Assembly (NCBI RefSeq): GCF_007859675.1
Contig: NZ_CP042305.1
Coordinates: forward strand, 248,001-312,000
Direction: 5' to 3'
Source: Humibacter ginsenosidimutans
GTDB taxonomy: Bacteria > Actinomycetota > Actinomycetes > Actinomycetales > Microbacteriaceae
DNA length: 64,000 nucleotides
Shown here: in pieces, positions 50,193 to 57,690 of the stretch
Numbering within the stretch: the stretch's first letter is position 1
Layout: the number at the start of each line of letters is the position of its first letter
Translations under genes and position numbers: made by a program
The notes under the pieces: model-generated
What the model saw: the letters and a program-made list of their open reading frames with translations, nothing else
Told to the model about the DNA's origin: nothing
Database searches by the model: none

Positions 50193-50747
50193 GTGCTGAT
50201 CTACTCGATGACCGCGTCGGCCGACGGCTTCATCGCCGACCGCGACGGCGGTATCGACTGGAGCGCACCGGACGACGAGCTCTTCCAGGCGCATCTCGAC
50301 GAGGTGCGCAGCCTCGGCGCCTACCTGCTCGGCCGCCGACTCTACGAGACCATGCTCGTCTGGGAGACGCAGCCGGCGCTGAGCGAGAGCGAGTCGGGTG
50401 CTGCGTTCGCCGAGACCTGGCGCACCCTGCCGAAGATCGTGTTCAGTCGCAGCGGCGCACCCGTTCAGGGACGTGCCCGACTCGCAGAGAAGCCCCTGGC
50501 CGAAGAGATCGTCACCGCCCTCGAGACGACCGACAAGCCGGTCTCGATCGGCGGCGCCGCACTCGCCGCGGCCGCCATCGAATTCGGCTTCGTCGACGAG
50601 TTCCGCCTCTTCCGCGCTCCCGTCGTCCTGGGCGGCGGCACCCCGTACTTCCCGCCCGTCCCCGAGCAGATCCGGATGCGGACGCTCGAGACCCGAACGT
50701 TCGACTCCGGTGTCGTCTACGAGCGGTATCTGCGCGTCAGCGCCTAG
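50193..50747 (+). CDS. Dihydrofolate reductase / RibD C-terminal-like protein
   Basis: This 184-residue protein of the RibD C-terminal/DHFR fold has MTASADGFIADRDGGIDW at the start, YLLGRRLYETM, the NADPH-binding segment SIGGAALAAAAIEFGFVDEF and the terminal TFDSGVVYERYL. It is a paralogue of the protein at 5739-6332, but with the more usual 'ADGFIA' motif. The GTG start has GGAGGG upstream. It overlaps the convergent ABC-transporter ATPase gene by 4 bases. Confidence 0.9.
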   Translation: MLIYSMTASADGFIADRDGGIDWSAPDDELFQAHLDEVRSLGAYLLGRRLYETMLVWETQPALSESESGAAFAETWRTLPKIVFSRSGAPVQGRARLAEKPLAEEIVTALETTDKPVSIGGAALAAAAIEFGFVDEFRLFRAPVVLGGGTPYFPPVPEQIRMRTLETRTFDSGVVYERYLRVSA

Positions 50748-51868
50748 CGCGAGCGCACCACAACGGGACGGCCCTTGAATCGCACGTGCACCGCGGCATC
50801 CGGCACAGGGCGGTCGCGAACGTCGTGCTGCACCGAGGCCAGCGTGCCGTCCTCGAACCGCACGGTCGTGCGACGCATCGAGCCCAGGAAGCTCGAGCCC
50901 ACGACGACGGCCGGCAGAGCGTCATCGGCGCCACCCGCGCGCTCGTCCAGCTCGAGGTCCTCCGGCCTGATCAGCGCCGTCACCTCACCGCTCGCGCTCT
51001 CGCCGAGCACCGTGAGCCGGCGGCCGAACACGACGACCTCGTCGCCATCGGCGACGCCCGGAAGCCGGTTGCTCAAGCCCACGAAGTCGGCCACGAACGG
51101 CGTCGACGGCTGCAGGTAGAGCTCCTCGGGCGTGCCGATCTGCTCGATCGCCCCCGCATTCATGACCGCAACGCGGTCGGCGACGGCGAGCGCCTCCTCC
51201 TGATCGTGCGTGACGAACACCGTGGTGATGCCGAGCTCCCGCTGGATGCGCCGGATCTCCTCGCGCAGCTGCACCCGCACCTTCGCGTCGAGAGCTGACA
51301 GCGGCTCGTCGAGCAGCAGCACGCGGGGCCGCGTCACGAGTGCACGTGCGAGCGCGACCCGCTGCTGCTGCCCACCGGACAGCTCGTGCGGATAGCGTTC
51401 GCCGAAGGACGCCAGTCCCACCAGGTCGAGAGCCTCGGCGGCGCGGGCGGCGCGCTTGCGGGCATCCACCCGGCGCATGCGCAGTCCGAACTCCACGTTC
51501 TGCGTGGCCGTGAGGTGCGGAAAGAGCGAGTACGACTGGAACACCATGCCGATGTCGCGGCGGTTCGCGGCCACGGCGGCGACGTCGGTTCCGTCGATGA
51601 GGATGCTGCCGGCATCCACCCGCTCCAGGCCCGAGAGCGCGCGGAGCATGGTCGTCTTGCCACAGCCGGACGGACCGAGCAGGGCGACGAACTCGCCGGG
51701 GTTGATGCTCAGCGTGACGCCCTGCAGAGCACGGTGCGAACCGTAGGTCTTGACGATGTCGACCAGCTCGACGGCGGTGCCCTTGATGGTCAGGGGGCCG
51801 GTGTCTCCCGGCCCACCGCCGCCCGGCGTGGATGCCGGGTGGTCGGTGTCGTGCAGGGTGACGGTCAT
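50744..51868 (-). CDS. ABC transporter ATP-binding protein, 2-aminoethylphosphonate type
   Basis: This 374-residue ATPase of the PotA/PhnT group has Walker A GPSGCGKTTM, Q-loop FQSYSLFPHL, signature LSGGQQQRVALARAL and Walker B LLLDEPLSALD. A TOBE-like C-terminal domain is present (LIRPEDLELDE). It energises the two permeases just upstream, with which it overlaps by 4 bases. Spermidine and thiamine transporters are similar; the phosphonate assignment rests on the downstream catabolic genes. Confidence 0.92.
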   Translation of the reverse strand: MTVTLHDTDHPASTPGGGGPGDTGPLTIKGTAVELVDIVKTYGSHRALQGVTLSINPGEFVALLGPSGCGKTTMLRALSGLERVDAGSILIDGTDVAAVAANRRDIGMVFQSYSLFPHLTATQNVEFGLRMRRVDARKRAARAAEALDLVGLASFGERYPHELSGGQQQRVALARALVTRPRVLLLDEPLSALDAKVRVQLREEIRRIQRELGITTVFVTHDQEEALAVADRVAVMNAGAIEQIGTPEELYLQPSTPFVADFVGLSNRLPGVADGDEVVVFGRRLTVLGESASGEVTALIRPEDLELDERAGGADDALPAVVVGSSFLGSMRRTTVRFEDGTLASVQHDVRDRPVPDAAVHVRFKGRPVVVRSR

Positions 51869-52698
51869 GATGCGCTCCTTCTGGTGCGGCGGTACGAGCC
51901 GACTCGGCCGATCACGAGCAGCAGCACGAACGCGAACACCAGGGCGAACACGGCGAAGATCGCCGCGACGTAGGGGTCGGTCTGCTGCAGCAGGAACAGC
52001 GCGGTCTGGAAGGTGGTCTGGTTGAGGAACGACGCGATCGTGTACTCGCCGAGCACGACGGCGATCGTGAGAAAACAGGCGGAGAGGATGCCGCGCTTGA
52101 GGTTGGGCAGGATGACCCGCCCGAGCACCGACAGCCAGCCGGCGCCGAGCGAGCGGGCTGCCTCACCGAGCACCACCAGATCGAGGGCCGCGATGTTCGC
52201 CTGGATCGGCCGGTACGCGTAGGGCAGCACGATGATGCCGATCGCGAACGAAAGCGTCCACGCGACCGAGCCGAACACGCCGGCCACCACCTGGTACACG
52301 GGCACGAACCCCACCACGAGCACCACGGTCGGCACCGTGATGGGCAGCAGGCAGACGAACTCGATGGCCCGGCGCATGCTCGGGTAGCGCAGTTCCACCA
52401 GCACCATCGTGGGCAGCAGCACGAGCAGCACGACGGCCACCGTGATCACGCAGATCAGCAGCGAGTTGCCGATGCCGGTGAAGAGCTGATCATAGGTGAG
52501 CTCCTGCGACGGGTCGAAGATCGCCGCGTAGTGCACGAGCGTGAACGAGGAGAACGAGCCGGTCGCGCCGGGCGCACGGAACGTGAAGAGCAGCATGGCC
52601 GCGATCGGCAGCAGAAAGAGGATGCCCGCCACGGTCAGGATGATCGTGCTCGTCGTGCGGCTCGGTGCGGCGCCGACGCGCACGTCGTGCCGGCTCAC
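51865..52698 (-). CDS. ABC transporter permease, 2-aminoethylphosphonate type
   Basis: This 277-residue permease has about six membrane helices and the ABC-interaction loop EAARSLGAGWLSVLGRVILP. The start is the GTG at 52698 with GGAGGTG upstream; it overlaps the stop of the other permease (GTGA). The longer upstream frame is Arg-rich and not real. It pairs with the 303-residue permease to form the channel of the importer. Confidence 0.9.
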   Translation of the reverse strand: MSRHDVRVGAAPSRTTSTIILTVAGILFLLPIAAMLLFTFRAPGATGSFSSFTLVHYAAIFDPSQELTYDQLFTGIGNSLLICVITVAVVLLVLLPTMVLVELRYPSMRRAIEFVCLLPITVPTVVLVVGFVPVYQVVAGVFGSVAWTLSFAIGIIVLPYAYRPIQANIAALDLVVLGEAARSLGAGWLSVLGRVILPNLKRGILSACFLTIAVVLGEYTIASFLNQTTFQTALFLLQQTDPYVAAIFAVFALVFAFVLLLVIGRVGSYRRTRRSAS

Positions 52699-53606
52699 CG
52701 CTGCCACCTCCTGGCTCGTCGCTGCAGCATCGAGTACGCGGCCATGACGATCACCATCACCACGAGCATCCCGAGCGCCAGCACTCCGGCCGTGTTGGAG
52801 ACGCCCACGATCGTCTCGCTCGTGAGCTGCTGCTTGATGGCCAGCGGCATGATGCCGCCCTGGTCGATCAGCGCGGCCGCCGTCGCGAACGACGAGAACG
52901 CGTTCGCGAACAGCAGGATCGTGCTGCCCCAGAACGCGGGAGCCAGGATCGGGAAGGCGACCCGCCACCAGTACGTGGCGCGCGACGCGCCGAGCGTCGC
53001 CGCTGCCTCCGCCCACTGGTGCTGCATGCCCTCGATCGCGGGCATGAACGTGATGACCATCAGCGGGATGGAGAAGTAGAGGTAGGGGAAGACGAGACCG
53101 CTCACCTGATAGAGCAGGGGACCGTTAGCGTTGATGTCGAACCCGAAGGTCTGCTTGAGCGTGAGCGTCAGCACACCCTGAAGGCCGATCAGCGCGATGA
53201 ACGCGAACGCCAGCATGATGCCGCCGAACTGAGCGAGCACGCTGGATGCCGAGTCCACCACCGTGCGCAGCATGCCGGTGGGCTTGGCGCCGAGCAGGGC
53301 GAAGCAGATCAACGCCCCCACGACGGCGCCCACGAGGGCGACAACGGCCGAGACCCAGAACGAGTTGACCATGTCGGTCACGATCACCGGATTGGCGAAT
53401 GCGGCGAGGTTCGCGAAGGTGAAGGCCCCGGCATCCGTGAAGAACCCGCTCGCCACGGCGTAGACCGTGGGAACGGCGAGGAACAGAAGCACGTACAGCG
53501 CGAACGGCGTGAAGCCCAGCCACCCTGCCCCAAGGCGCCGGAACCTGGCGGTTCCGGCGCCCGTGGCGGTGGTGGCCGTCGCGATCGGTGTGGACGCGGC
53601 GGTCAT
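52695..53606 (-). CDS. ABC transporter permease, 2-aminoethylphosphonate type
   Basis: This 303-residue permease has about six helices and the interaction loop EAAATLGASRATYWWRVAFPIL. The N-terminal ~25 residues are Thr/Ala-rich. It lies 20 bases downstream of the binding-protein gene and overlaps the second permease. Both permeases resemble the PhnU/PhnV or PotB/PotC type; phosphonate specificity is inferred from context. Confidence 0.9.
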   Translation of the reverse strand: MTAASTPIATATTATGAGTARFRRLGAGWLGFTPFALYVLLFLAVPTVYAVASGFFTDAGAFTFANLAAFANPVIVTDMVNSFWVSAVVALVGAVVGALICFALLGAKPTGMLRTVVDSASSVLAQFGGIMLAFAFIALIGLQGVLTLTLKQTFGFDINANGPLLYQVSGLVFPYLYFSIPLMVITFMPAIEGMQHQWAEAAATLGASRATYWWRVAFPILAPAFWGSTILLFANAFSSFATAAALIDQGGIMPLAIKQQLTSETIVGVSNTAGVLALGMLVVMVIVMAAYSMLQRRARRWQR

Positions 53607-53626
53607 CGCAGCTCCTTCAGACTCGG

Positions 53627-54823
53627 TCAGCCGACCGTCTTCGACCAGCTGGAGCCGAGCAGCGAACCGGCCTTGGTGGCCTGGTCTGCCGTGAGCTGCA
53701 CGAAGTTCTTCGGCGGCTCACCCACGGACTTCAGCGTGCTCTCGTCCACGGTCTTGTTCGAGATCATGGCCTGCAGGGTGGCCGGATAGGCGCCGGAGGC
53801 CAGGTACAGGTTCTGCACCTCGGGGCTGTACAGGTACTCCTCCCACAGGCGAGCGGCCGCCGGGTTCGGGCCGTCGGCGTTGATCGCCTGGTTGTAGTAG
53901 CTGCCCAGTGCCGTGCCGGGAAGCACCACGGTCTTCCAGTTCGGGTTGCCCGCCGAACCGCCCGCCGGACCCCAAGCCAGGTTGTTGTAGCTCCACTGGA
54001 TGACCACGGGCGTCTCGCCCGAGTTCACCGTGGCCTGCGTCGGCAGCACGGAGAGGAAGTTGCCGGCCTTCTTCAGCTTGCCGAAGAAGTCGATGCCCGG
54101 CTGGATGTCGTCGGCCGTGCCGCCCGACTGGAGGTTGGCCCAATAGACAGCGCTCGCAGCCTCGTTGGCCTGGGTCGGGTCGCCCTTGATGGCGACCTTG
54201 CCCTTGTAGTCGGAGCCGAGCAGGTCGTCGATGCTCTTCGGCGCCTTCTTGATCACCTTGGAGTCGTAGCCGATCGACATCAGGCCGGTGTAGTCGTAGT
54301 ACCACTTGCCTTTCGCGTCTTTGTAGTCGGCGGGCAGGTCGGCCCAGTTCTTCACCTTGTAGTCGGCGAGCAGGTCGAGATTGTCGTCGAGAACGGCGGT
54401 GCCGAGGTCGAACACGTCGGGGGCGGTGCTCTGCCCCTTCTGCGACTTCGCCGCGGCGACCTCGTCGGCGCTGGAACCGTTCGGGTTCTCCGAGTTGATC
54501 TTGATGTTCGGGTACTTCTTCTGGAAGCCGGCGATGATCTTGCCGTAGTTCGCCCACGACGGCGGCAGGGTGATCACGTTGAGGTGGCCCTCCTTGTTCG
54601 CCGCTGCGACGAGACCCGCCATGCCGCCGAAGTCGGCGGCGCTTGTCGCCTTCTGCGCCTGCTCGAGCGTGAGGGTCTTCGCGTCTGCGGCGTTCGCCGT
54701 GTTCGCTCCGCTGCCTGCGCAGGCCGTGAGCGAGAGGGCGACGACCGTCGCCAGGGCGGCGGTCGCGAGAATGCGCTTGCCGCCTCGCGTGCCCGCGGTG
54801 CGGGCGATCGCGCGTAGTTCCAT
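53627..54823 (-). CDS. ABC transporter substrate-binding lipoprotein (2-aminoethylphosphonate type)
   Basis: This extracellular lipoprotein has 398 residues, a lipobox LTAC with Cys35 and a periplasmic-binding fold of the spermidine/iron/aminoethylphosphonate family (VITLPPSWANYGKIIAGFQKK near the start, DVFDLGTAVLDDN, YYDYTGLMSIGYD). The ATG at 54823 has AAAGGA upstream. It feeds the two permeases downstream. The substrate is inferred from the FAD oxidase and PhnX-like hydrolase beside it. Confidence 0.9.
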   Translation of the reverse strand: MELRAIARTAGTRGGKRILATAALATVVALSLTACAGSGANTANAADAKTLTLEQAQKATSAADFGGMAGLVAAANKEGHLNVITLPPSWANYGKIIAGFQKKYPNIKINSENPNGSSADEVAAAKSQKGQSTAPDVFDLGTAVLDDNLDLLADYKVKNWADLPADYKDAKGKWYYDYTGLMSIGYDSKVIKKAPKSIDDLLGSDYKGKVAIKGDPTQANEAASAVYWANLQSGGTADDIQPGIDFFGKLKKAGNFLSVLPTQATVNSGETPVVIQWSYNNLAWGPAGGSAGNPNWKTVVLPGTALGSYYNQAINADGPNPAAARLWEEYLYSPEVQNLYLASGAYPATLQAMISNKTVDESTLKSVGEPPKNFVQLTADQATKAGSLLGSSWSKTVG

Positions 54824-54885
54824 GTCCGTGTCCTTTACGGTTCGGTGTTCGGGTGTGTCTTGGTGGTCGGTGAAGTCGTGGGGGC

Positions 54886-56091
54886 TCACGCTGCGGTGTG
54901 GGCCTGTCGGGAGGAGACGAGCTCGTCGAGAACGGCACGCGCGAGCCCGAAGCCCGTCGTCATGCCGATGCCGCTGGTGACGGATGCCACGACCACCCCG
55001 GGCTCCGGGCTCGCCATCAGGAACGGCCCGGTCGGGGCGGAGGCGTACACGCCCCGCCAGCGCCGCAGCACCGTGAGGTCGGGCACGCCGAACAGCAGGC
55101 GGAACTGGTCGAGCAGCAGCTCGTCGACCTCTTCGGCCTCGAACGGCGTGAGCGTGGTGTCGTAGTGGTGGGTGTCGCCGATCACGATGCGACCGTTCGC
55201 CCGCTGCGTGAACATGAGGTTCACGGTGTTCTCTAACAGCTCGGGCGCGGACTCGGCGAGTTCGGCACGCACCCTCTGCGCGGAGTCCGTGCTCGCGAAG
55301 CCGTCGTAGCGCAGCAGCGAGGTGCCGGTGAACACTCCGGGGGCGACGGTCATGCCGGAGGGTGCCTCGATCTCCATCATGCGCAGGCGGCAGCGCTGCA
55401 CCCCCGCCTCGGCGGCGAGCTCGGGGTAGTGTCTGTCCACGTCGTGTCCGACGGCGAGCACGACCGTCTCGGCCGTGTACTCCCGCCGGTTCGTGCGCAC
55501 GAGCCCGCCCGAGATCTCGAGCACGTTCTCGCCGTACCGCAGGTCGGCGCCGCGCTCCGCGATCGCCGCGGCGAGCGCCGGGATCGCGTCGGGGGAGTCG
55601 ACGCGCAGATCGAGAGGGAGGTGCGCGCCGGCGACGAGGCCGGGCGAGTCGAAGCCCGCCAGCCGCGCGGCCTCGGCGGGGGTGAGCATCCTCACGGCGT
55701 CGTCGCGCAGCGCGTGAAACTCCTCGAGCACGTCGGCCTCCGCCTGCGTGCGGGCCAGCACCACCGTGCCGTCGGTGCGCACCGGGATGCCCGCGACGGC
55801 TCCCGCCTGCAGCCACGTCTCGCGGGCATCCATCGCGTACTCCAGCGCGAGACCCGACTGCGCGGTGGCGCACAGGTGCCCGAAGTTCCGGATGCTCGCA
55901 CCCACCGCGCGCTCGTCGCGCTCGATCACGATGACCGACATCCCGCGCAGCACGGCGTGCCAGGCGTGGGCGAGCCCCACGATGCCCGCACCGACCACGA
56001 TGAGGTCGGCGTGCGGGGCGATGGCGGAGGAGTCGTCGGAAGTCACGGCTCGAGTCTGCAGGGACGAAGGCGGCGGATCGGCCGATTCCAT
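54886..56091 (-). CDS. FAD-dependent amine oxidoreductase of phosphonate catabolism (TIGR03364-like)
   Basis: This DAO-type FAD oxidoreductase of about 401 residues has the dinucleotide motif VVGAGIVGLAHAWHA, IRNFGHL near residue 70, and a C-terminal FAD contact SGIGMTTGFGLA. The family, related to glycine and D-amino-acid oxidases, is known from clusters with PhnX-like hydrolases and phosphonate transporters. It should oxidise an amino- or methylamino-phosphonate to an aldehyde. The ATG at 56091 is the longest start; a GTG at 56046 is likely too. No signal peptide is seen. Confidence 0.88.
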   Translation of the reverse strand: MESADPPPSSLQTRAVTSDDSSAIAPHADLIVVGAGIVGLAHAWHAVLRGMSVIVIERDERAVGASIRNFGHLCATAQSGLALEYAMDARETWLQAGAVAGIPVRTDGTVVLARTQAEADVLEEFHALRDDAVRMLTPAEAARLAGFDSPGLVAGAHLPLDLRVDSPDAIPALAAAIAERGADLRYGENVLEISGGLVRTNRREYTAETVVLAVGHDVDRHYPELAAEAGVQRCRLRMMEIEAPSGMTVAPGVFTGTSLLRYDGFASTDSAQRVRAELAESAPELLENTVNLMFTQRANGRIVIGDTHHYDTTLTPFEAEEVDELLLDQFRLLFGVPDLTVLRRWRGVYASAPTGPFLMASPEPGVVVASVTSGIGMTTGFGLARAVLDELVSSRQAHTAA

Positions 56092-56107
56092 CCACTTGTC
56101 ATGAGAT

Positions 56108-56156
56108 GTTCACCTGACAGGAAATCGCGGCGATTCGAGGCAAACATCGGGTGAAC
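56108..56156. promoter_or_regulatory. PHO-box-like half units between the divergent phosphonate genes
   Basis: GTTCACCTGAC on the plus strand (56108-56118) and GTTCACCCGAT on the minus strand (56146-56156) each match the 11-base PHO unit at about 9 positions. Neither has a convincing second direct repeat. Candidate only. Confidence 0.3.
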
Positions 56157-56200
56157 AGGCGGTGTCCGAAGGGGCTGTCTTGTTGTCCGGTGTCGACATC

Positions 56201-56206
56201 TATAGT
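56201..56206 (+). promoter_or_regulatory. Leaderless -10 box of the GntR gene
   Basis: TATAGT lies 6 bases before the ATG at 56213, so transcription should begin at or next to the start codon. There is no ribosome binding site. Confidence 0.55.
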
Positions 56207-56212
56207 CAAGCT

Positions 56213-56998
56213 ATGACGGTGCCTCTCCACGAACGCGTTCGCACGAGCATCAGGGACCGCATCCTCAGCGGCGACCTCGTCGCGGGTGACACACTGCCCA
56301 GCGAGGCGGAGCTGTGCGCACAGTTCGGGGCCTCCCGTGGCCCGGTACGTCAGGCCATCTCGGCGCTGAGCGCCGAGGGCCTGATCGAGACCAGTCAGGG
56401 CAAGGTGCCCACGGTGAGCAGGCTGCCGCTGAAGCAGCCGATCGACGACTTCTTCTCGTTCTCCGCCTGGGTCACGGCCATCGGCCGCATACCCGGCCAG
56501 CACACTGTGGAGATCGCCCTCCGCAGGGCCGACCCGGTGCTGTCCGCCGAGCTTCGCGTCGATGACGACGAGAACATCGTGCAGCTGTTGCGGGTGCGCT
56601 CCATCGACGCAGAGCCCACCATGCTGGAGCGCACGGCGTTCGTGGCGTGGGTCGGCCGCATGCTGTTCGACTTCGACACCGACTCCGGGTCGATCTTCGG
56701 GCACCTGATCGAACAGGGCGTTCCGCTCGACCACGGCGAGCACACCATCGACGCGGTCGCCGCCGATGAGCAGGACGCCCTCCACCTGTCCGTTCCCGTC
56801 GGCTCGCCGCTGCTGCGCGTGCGTCGCGTCACCACCTCGCGCGACGGCGAGGTGCTCGAGTACTCCGACGATCGCTACCGGCCCGATCGCGCCGATCTCG
56901 TGGTGCGCAACGCGAGAACGCCGACCAGCCAGCGCGTCTTCGTCACCCGTCAACTCACCCCGGAGACCTCCGGAGACACCAGCAGGAGAACACCGTGA
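56213..56998 (+). CDS. GntR family regulator with UTRA domain (phosphonate cluster)
   Basis: This 261-residue HutC/PhnF-type regulator has an N-terminal winged helix (PLHERVRTSIRDRILSGDLV, then AGDTLPSEAELCAQFGASRGPVRQAI) and a C-terminal UTRA ligand-binding domain (PMLERTAFVAWVG region, ending EYSDDRYRPDRADL). It is divergent from the transporter and oxidase genes and coupled by GTGA to the PhnX-like hydrolase. It is probably the cluster's local repressor, sensing a phosphonate or pathway intermediate. The leaderless ATG at 56213 fits a -10 box. Confidence 0.9.
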   Translation: MTVPLHERVRTSIRDRILSGDLVAGDTLPSEAELCAQFGASRGPVRQAISALSAEGLIETSQGKVPTVSRLPLKQPIDDFFSFSAWVTAIGRIPGQHTVEIALRRADPVLSAELRVDDDENIVQLLRVRSIDAEPTMLERTAFVAWVGRMLFDFDTDSGSIFGHLIEQGVPLDHGEHTIDAVAADEQDALHLSVPVGSPLLRVRRVTTSRDGEVLEYSDDRYRPDRADLVVRNARTPTSQRVFVTRQLTPETSGDTSRRTP

Positions 56999-57690
56999 CC
57001 ATTCGACTCGTCTGCCTCGACATGGCAGGAACGACCATCGACGAAGGCGGTGTCGTCTACGACGTGCTCCGCTCCAGCGTCGAGAACGCCACCGGCCGCC
57101 GGGTCGCCGACGACGTGCTCGCGCGGTGGACCGGCACCGACAAGCACGGGGCGATCACCGGACTCCTCACCGAGATCGGCGACGACCCGGCGCGTGCCGA
57201 CGAGGTCTTCGCCGTCTTCTCGAGGAGGCTCGACGAGGCCTACGCCGCCACGCAGGCCACGCTCTTCCACGGCGTGCGCAAGGCGGTCAGGAGTCTGCGC
57301 AGCCACGGCGTGAAGGTCGCGCTGCAGACCGGGTACACGCTCGAGGTGGCGGCGCCGCTGCTGGATGCCGTGGGCTGGCGCATCGGCCACGACATCGACG
57401 CCATCGCCACGGCCGACGACGTCTCCGCCTCCAGGCCCGCTCCGTACCTCGTGTTCCGCACCATGGAGGCCACGGGGGTGCGCAGCGTCGACGAGGTGCT
57501 GGTCGCAGGGGACACCCCGAACGACCTCGGCGCCGGGCACAACGCCGGTGCGAGGTACGTGGTCGGGGTGCTGACCGGCGCGGCCGATGCGGTGCAGCTG
57601 GGCAGGCATCCGCACACGCACCTGCTTCCCGGTGTCGCCGACATCCCGGCGCTCCTGGCAGAGGCGGGGGAGTTGCCTGCAGGGGGCTGA
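56995..57690 (+). CDS. Phosphonatase-like HAD hydrolase (TIGR03351-like)
   Basis: This 231-residue HAD enzyme resembles phosphonoacetaldehyde hydrolase. The nucleophile is Asp9 in LDMAGTTID, the DxAGT form used by phosphonatases. Lys50 in the cap (WTGTDKHGAI) sits where PhnX forms a Schiff base with the aldehyde. Arg147 replaces the usual HAD lysine, and the acidic motif is GDTPNDLGA. These features suggest cleavage of the C-P bond of a 2-oxo-ethylphosphonate. There is no PhnW transaminase; the FAD oxidase probably makes the aldehyde. The GTG start overlaps the GntR gene. Confidence 0.9.
   Translation: MTIRLVCLDMAGTTIDEGGVVYDVLRSSVENATGRRVADDVLARWTGTDKHGAITGLLTEIGDDPARADEVFAVFSRRLDEAYAATQATLFHGVRKAVRSLRSHGVKVALQTGYTLEVAAPLLDAVGWRIGHDIDAIATADDVSASRPAPYLVFRTMEATGVRSVDEVLVAGDTPNDLGAGHNAGARYVVGVLTGAADAVQLGRHPHTHLLPGVADIPALLAEAGELPAGG

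Follow-up and report, generated by a model that had tools for sequence, protein, structure and literature searches.

Bacterial routes that release phosphate from aminophosphonates by way of phosphonoacetaldehyde differ in how this aldehyde is made. In the PhnWX pathway, which is accompanied by an ATP-binding cassette (ABC) importer for 2-aminoethylphosphonate (AEP) and a GntR/UTRA regulator, it comes from PhnW, and the (R)-1-hydroxy-AEP ammonia-lyase PbfA provides a neighboring route to the same compound (PMC12366243). A further source is the flavin adenine dinucleotide (FAD)-dependent PbfD oxidases. According to PMC10590968, purified PbfD1 of Acinetobacter baumannii (annotated as TIGR03364) and PbfD2 of M. 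fucicola use oxygen to convert N-methyl-AEP and AEP to phosphonoacetaldehyde, PhnX then frees phosphate from the PbfD product, and PbfD2 is proposed to replace PhnW in M. fucicola. A TIGR03364 gene named HpnW also shares operons with a phosphonatase, a true PhnX, in Achromobacter, and its function is left unassigned in that study (PMC11203657). Here, we describe a cluster from the actinobacterium Humibacter ginsenosidimutans, located in a 64,000-nucleotide stretch of contig NZ_CP042305.1 (positions 248,001–312,000, hereafter the window), in which a PbfD-like oxidase is paired with a hydrolase of the family TIGR03351.

Like the PbfD systems (PMC10590968), the cluster combines a TIGR03364 oxidase with a phosphonatase-type hydrolase and an importer, and like the M. 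fucicola system it has no PhnW. It differs in the distance of its oxidase from the Acinetobacter homologs and in the identity of the hydrolase, which is PhnX in the PbfD systems. The published PbfD census was built on clusters containing phnX or phnY/phnA, and it mentions homologs outside such clusters only in passing (Terrabacteria, mostly cyanobacteria); clusters like the one in the window therefore appear to fall outside that survey (PMC10590968).

We give a probability of roughly 0.78 to the reading that the cluster is an inducible aminophosphonate-scavenging unit. The importer would take up AEP and/or its N-methyl form. The oxidase, in the role of PhnW, would use oxygen to deaminate the substrate to phosphonoacetaldehyde and ammonia or methylamine. 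The hydrolase would then form a Schiff base through Lys50 and attack the phosphorus with Asp9, yielding acetaldehyde and phosphate, and would thus fill the role of PhnX without an equivalent of its His56. A GntR/UTRA protein would repress both divergent units from sites of the type ACTTGTnnnnACAAGT until a ligand arrives. Genes, families, residues, their conservation, gene absences at the model cut-offs, and predicted sites were computed here, and the chemistry of PbfD and PhnX is taken from the literature. From these we infer the substrates of the hydrolase and of the importer, the repression, and any preference between AEP and N-methyl-AEP. The logic of such a pathway is already known from the PbfD work, by which the oxidase half is largely explained; the apparent novelty is that PhnX consistently gives way to a hydrolase from a different clade, one without His56.

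A PhnX-like hydrolase from a separate clade

The window hydrolase scores 278.7 bits against TIGR03351, above the curated cut-off of 218.9, and 94.2 bits against the PhnX model TIGR01422, far below the cut-off of 220; six PhnX sequences used for comparison reach 325.5–353.8 bits against the latter model. In a tree of 46 hand-picked hydrolase sequences, the six PhnX proteins lie on one side of a branch with support of 100/100, and the window hydrolase falls outside.

The protein nevertheless has in common with PhnX (for instance, that of B. cereus) the haloacid dehalogenase (HAD) fold, the nucleophilic aspartate, the Schiff-base lysine, and the threonine, arginine, and Mg-binding aspartate. Asp9 and Lys50 align with the nucleophile and the lysine, and PhnX Thr126, Arg160, and Asp186 (roles from PMC7916636) have retained equivalents in Thr112, Arg147, and Asp173. 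Among 80 hydrolase sequences, Asp9 is present in 79 (the remaining sequence is without its N-terminus) and Lys50 in all 80. The place of PhnX His56, however, is occupied by Ala53 in the window hydrolase, and a histidine is found there in none of 132 TIGR03351-type sequences, as opposed to six of six PhnX sequences. A first-pass annotation of the window had singled out Asp9 and Lys50 correctly but had overlooked both the loss of His56 and the operator-like sites described below.

Tyr22 and Tyr83 are invariant in 69 oxidase-linked sequences. We dropped the idea that either residue replaces His56 throughout, because 12 of 29 family loci, together with Streptomyces-like sequences, carry Glu22 and Val or Ile at position 83. 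At least two active-site types can be distinguished, one with Ala53, Tyr22, and Tyr83, as in the window, and another with Val53 and mostly Glu22. The structure predicted for the hydrolase has a mean predicted local distance difference test (pLDDT) score of 94.8, and we rejected its fold as proof of function, as PhnX and other HAD hydrolases tie as matches to the model.

Phosphonate use is surveyed largely by means of the markers phnW, phnX, phnA, and phnJ. We consider it probable that TIGR03351 represents a second class of phosphonoacetaldehyde hydrolase, which forms a separate clade, works without His56, includes at least two active-site types, and, together with PbfD-type oxidases, completes PhnW- and PhnX-free aminophosphonate pathways in Actinomycetota, Bacteroidota, and perhaps a cyanobacterium that surveys based on phnW, phnX, or phnJ would miss. 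If so, a route invisible to those markers would be in use in many actinobacteria (both genes occur in 36 of 150 sampled members of the host's family), and the family would offer a natural test of the importance of His56 for Schiff-base C–P cleavage. Our literature search, with subscription papers mostly outside its reach, turned up no test of any TIGR03351 enzyme.

The oxidase and the identity of the aldehyde

The window oxidase scores 395.7 bits against TIGR03364 (curated cut-off 285.1). It is 25–28 per cent identical to the Acinetobacter PbfD1 homologs and 35–39 per cent identical to three proteobacterial homologs that adjoin true phnX genes. The first-pass annotation had the oxidase supplying an aldehyde to the hydrolase, an idea that the comparisons favor, and had treated the chemistry of the oxidase as unsettled, a view made out of date by the PbfD results (PMC10590968). 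Of the substrates that it listed, AEP and N-methyl-AEP agree with PbfD chemistry, and the 1-hydroxy form looks weaker because (R)-1-hydroxy-AEP has its own enzyme, PbfA, which adjoins this type of oxidase in two related clusters.

The loss of His56 in all 132 TIGR03351-type sequences, with its retention in all six PhnX sequences, could instead mean that the hydrolase has a different substrate, and that the pair handles another aminophosphonate whose aldehyde is not plain phosphonoacetaldehyde. The low identity of the oxidase to the Acinetobacter proteins fits this possibility, as does the description of the TIGR03364 model, which, as quoted in PMC10590968, proposes a 1-hydroxy compound. We nonetheless regard a different aldehyde as unlikely in view of three comparative observations, which together point to phosphonoacetaldehyde as the probable substrate of the hydrolase.

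Firstly, hydrolase partners appear to have been exchanged repeatedly. In a tree of 31 hand-picked oxidases, which includes the Acinetobacter PbfD1 homologs and is without M. fucicola PbfD2, the well-supported branches require three or more switches between a PhnX and a TIGR03351 partner. Acinetobacter oxidases linked to PhnW and PhnX pair with TIGR03351-linked oxidases of Bacteroidota, the main group of TIGR03351-linked actinobacterial oxidases is joined with the three proteobacterial PhnX-linked ones, and an actinobacterial PhnX-linked oxidase pairs with one from a cyanobacterium. Of the TIGR03351 partner labels, 13 are individually above the cut-off of 218.9 bits; one (L102) reaches 213.5 over the matched stretch only, those of the cyanobacterium (L117) and Hymenobacter (L119) fall below it at 169.6 and 165.2, and the rest were assigned by sequence similarity. 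When the L117 and L119 rows are removed, the resulting tree of 29 oxidases still forces at least three changes. Hydrolases that are interchangeable across the oxidase tree suggest one shared aldehyde.

Secondly, Endozoicomonas arenosclerae carries a TIGR03351 gene (253.4 bits) in a cluster that includes AEP-importer genes, next to genes that match PhnR (304.2 bits; cut-off 296.75), PhnS2 (471.3; 392.75), PhnT2 (486.5; 457.7), and PhnW (619.1; 400.8), as well as PbfA (585.5; 525), whose reading frame looks interrupted and was scored on its larger fragment. No match to the PhnX model above the cut-off was found in this genome, which is a single draft. Among 274 genomes of the same class, there was no second PhnW-linked case; the two TIGR03351 matches were Endozoicomonas itself and G367, whose gene falls under the cut-off (210.6 bits) and adjoins oxidase, DUF5690, and PhnM-like genes. 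Thirdly, two actinobacterial records derived from metagenomes (L067 and L070) encode PbfA (560.6 and 562.8 bits) between the binding protein and the oxidase. The window cluster itself has no PbfA gene. PhnW and PbfA both yield phosphonoacetaldehyde (PMC12366243).

One of the Acinetobacter records (L115, NZ_CP104448.1, A. baumannii) is filed as a plasmid, is 4.09 Mb long, and is probably a chromosome. Its regulator-, importer-, PbfD1-, and PhnW-like genes, recognized by eye, stand in a row with PhnX (353.8 bits).

Co-occurrence of the oxidase and the hydrolase

At an E-value threshold of 1e-30, TIGR03351 was found in eight of 198 genomes of the phylum, TIGR03364 in eight, and both in five; in the four genomes other than the host that have both, the genes lie fewer than 130 bases apart. 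We surveyed 150 genomes of the host's family and found the oxidase in 37, the hydrolase in 42, and both in 36 (hypergeometric P-value = 3e-27, with kinship not corrected for). In 33 of these 36, the two genes are no more than 2.3 kb apart; G479, G562, and G522 are the exceptions. A scan with the hydrolase as the query returned at least 541 relatives, of which the best 80 provided the loci examined by name, some of them cut by contig ends. In 68 of the 80, a TIGR03364-like gene lies no more than 10 kb away from the hydrolase, upstream on the opposite strand in 58 and on the same strand in 10, and a GntR-type gene was seen in 44 of the 68. On the strength of the family counts, the proximity, and these loci, we rejected chance co-location of the pair.

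The amine oxidase and HAD superfamilies are both broad, and the pair could in principle consist of a generic amine oxidase and a generic HAD phosphatase that have nothing to do with phosphonates: relatives of the oxidase in the PDB are amino acid, glycine, and sarcosine oxidases (its own predicted structure has a mean pLDDT of 92.8), and other HAD hydrolases are among the proteins that match the hydrolase in fold. However, both proteins exceed the cut-offs of curated phosphonate-associated models, and the pair travels with PhnD-, PhnS-, PhnM-, PhnF-, PhnR-, PhnW-, or PbfA-type genes, which makes this explanation extremely improbable.

Absence of PhnW, PhnX, and PhnJ from the host genome

The first-pass annotation had noted the lack of an aminotransferase, and none is encoded in the cluster. 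The same holds for PhnW across the host genome (4.18 Mb, a single contig), where the best profile match reaches 29.8 bits against a cut-off of 400.8. The best match to the PhnX model in the genome search is the cluster hydrolase itself (87.7 of 220 bits), so that no PhnX passes the cut-off. PhnJ gave no match in the host, and the positive control, Escherichia coli, was detected. None of 14 control genomes exceeded the PhnW or PhnX cut-off, so neither of these searches has a positive control of its own; the same models do pass in Endozoicomonas (PhnW) and in the six PhnX sequences. We therefore rejected a hidden PhnW, PhnX, or C–P lyase elsewhere in the genome, with none above the cut-off and PhnY and PhnA not searched for.

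An importer that was probably adopted

Unlike the importer of the PhnWX pathway, that of the window has no subunit above a phosphonate equivalog cut-off; its subunits resemble phosphonate, polyamine, and sulfate importers. The importer could thus carry something else, such as a polyamine- or thiamine-like compound, with the oxidase and hydrolase genes having merely settled beside it. The ATPase scores 350.8 bits against PotA. Relatives of the binding protein occur in 90 of the 150 family genomes, and in 15 genomes one is encoded no more than 3 kb from either member of the oxidase–hydrolase pair. In six genomes with the binding protein elsewhere, we read its surroundings and found the pair in none of the stretches; four of them share one site, which we take to be bounded by two genes resembling threonine dehydratase and AI-2E on one side and a winged-helix-like gene on the other (named by reading the sequence), and the other two lie at different places. 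In loci of the L073 type, the pair sits at that same shared site. On the other side, phosphonate-type models are the best ones for the ATPase, one permease, and the binding protein, and where the binding protein is at least 73 per cent identical to that of the window (14 family genomes), 13 genomes have it at most 3 kb from one of the pair. An unrelated cargo is therefore improbable in our estimation, and the importer was probably adopted by the pathway rather than made for it. The first-pass annotation was right that an importer is present, but its description as dedicated is too strong given the distribution of the binding-protein relatives.

Among the 68 oxidase-bearing loci, the importer adjoining the pair is a PhnD-type one in 33 and one like that of the window in 15; nine loci have DUF5690 and three a PhnS-like importer, and none was seen in eight. 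The queries for the PhnD and PhnS types were checked against models: those for PhnD score 276.6 and 173.5 of 261.1 bits, and that for the PhnS type scores 501.9 of 310 bits against PRK15046. The DUF5690 gene, which is permease-like, adjoins TIGR03364 oxidases in Bacteroidota, Novosphingobium, and G367 (L125, L106, and L120), and is a candidate for a fourth importer type.

The regulator and a predicted operator

The regulator matches PF00392 and PF07702 (GntR and UTRA) above the cut-offs and falls under the equivalog cut-offs of HutC (102.5 of 220 bits), PhnF (97.8 of 156.8), and PhnR (68.8 of 296.75). In divergent stretches between oxidase and regulator genes, the palindrome given above is a recurring element, and a further copy is often present close to the gene on the other side. 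We collected 42 such stretches, of which four shorter than 150 bases (L060, L066, L077, and L079) were dropped. In all 38 that remain, 10–12 of the 12 outer bases match, and each stretch beats at least 96 per cent of random windows from the same locus; these windows may overlap the true site, which makes the per-locus P-values rough, and the consensus comes from loci of Paenarthrobacter, which themselves belong to the tested set. The window copies are weaker, with 10 of 12 matches ahead of the oxidase and, by hand count, 8 of 12 ahead of the regulator, and both are at places that match those in Humibacter sp. RRB41. We predict that the palindrome is an operator of the two divergent units; that the GntR/UTRA protein represses them is suggested by analogy with its family.

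Layout of the cluster

The seven genes are tightly packed in two divergent units between positions 50744 and 57690 of the window (Table 1), in agreement with the boundaries, gene positions, and family assignments of the first-pass annotation. Outward from the center, the minus-strand unit encodes the oxidase, the binding protein, two permeases, and the ATPase; in the plus-strand unit, the regulator and hydrolase genes overlap by four bases. The flanking genes belong to other families; one encodes a protein with a RibD_C domain and the other, at the opposite end of the cluster, a VOC-family protein.

Table 1. Genes and predicted sites of the cluster, in window coordinates.
Feature	Position	Strand	Remarks
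ABC importer ATPase	50744..51868	-	Top NCBIfam model PhnT2, 411.2 bits, under the cut-off of 457.7
ABC importer permease (BPD_transp_1)	51865..52698	-	Top but weak model PhnV, 46 bits (cut-off 358.7)
ABC importer permease (BPD_transp_1)	52695..53606	-	Top but weak model sulfate permease, 54.4 bits (cut-off 240)
Lipoprotein substrate-binding protein (SBP_bac_6)	53627..54823	-	PhnS model just 39.7 bits (cut-off 395.3)
FAD amine oxidase, TIGR03364, PbfD-like	54886..56046	-	Longer start to 56091 possible
Operator-like site ACTTGTCATGAGATGT	56094..56109		Ahead of the oxidase; recurring palindrome ACTTGTnnnnACAAGT of divergent oxidase/regulator intergenic regions
Weaker operator-like site ACATCTATAGTCAAGC	56196..56211		Immediately ahead of the regulator start codon
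GntR-family regulator with UTRA domain	56213..56998	+	HutC/PhnF type, under equivalog cut-offs
HAD hydrolase TIGR03351 (PhnX-like)	56995..57690	+	Asp9, Lys50, Thr112, Arg147, Asp173, and Asp177 kept; Ala53 at the place of PhnX His56

Related loci and a second TIGR03351 paralog

Twelve of the 80 named loci have no TIGR03364-like gene (L033, L036, L041, L048, L049, L051, L057, L062, L078, L081, L089, and L101). In two of them, from Rhodococcus koreensis (L033:4400-10669) and Mycobacterium sherrisii (L036:4587-10681), the TIGR03351 hydrolase gene lines up with an IclR-like gene, a MoxR-like gene, and a third gene, near a sulfoacetaldehyde acetyltransferase (TIGR03457, 1121.1 bits in L033; recognized by eye in L036). 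Five others (L048, L049, L051, L057, and L062) are Mycobacterium clusters of major facilitator superfamily/GntR genes, a TIGR03351-like gene, and an HpnZ-like alcohol dehydrogenase gene (324.5 of 328.1 bits in L048, where the gene was called short), and perhaps represent a 2-hydroxyethylphosphonate route.

In Chryseobacterium (L100, L102–L105, L107, and L108), genes that resemble a Streptomyces phosphodiesterase-like query, itself named by likeness, adjoin the oxidase–hydrolase pair, and in Hymenobacter (L119), a gene annotated as alkaline phosphatase family does so. Such neighbors suggest release of aminophosphonates from esters or lipids. A record titled Sporosarcina beigongshangi (L072) carries an oxidase/hydrolase cluster whose downstream gene order resembles that of Arthrobacter sp. 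GMC3 (L071), and is possibly misnamed or contaminated.

The host genome also encodes a second TIGR03351 paralog (C1:2429387-2430043; L020:8343-9191), which scores 210.8 of 218.9 bits; its neighbors are purS/purQ-like genes and the gene for an HpnZ-type alcohol dehydrogenase (328.0 of 328.1 bits). The nucleophilic aspartate of this paralog is changed to alanine, as in two other members of the genus seen and in G008 (L161, L162, and L027 among the loci), and from its sequence the protein seems to be a phosphonatase that has lost catalysis but has for some reason been retained. Paralogs in other genomes of the family carry other changes, and three of them adjoin purS/purQ-like genes (L156, L159, and L160).

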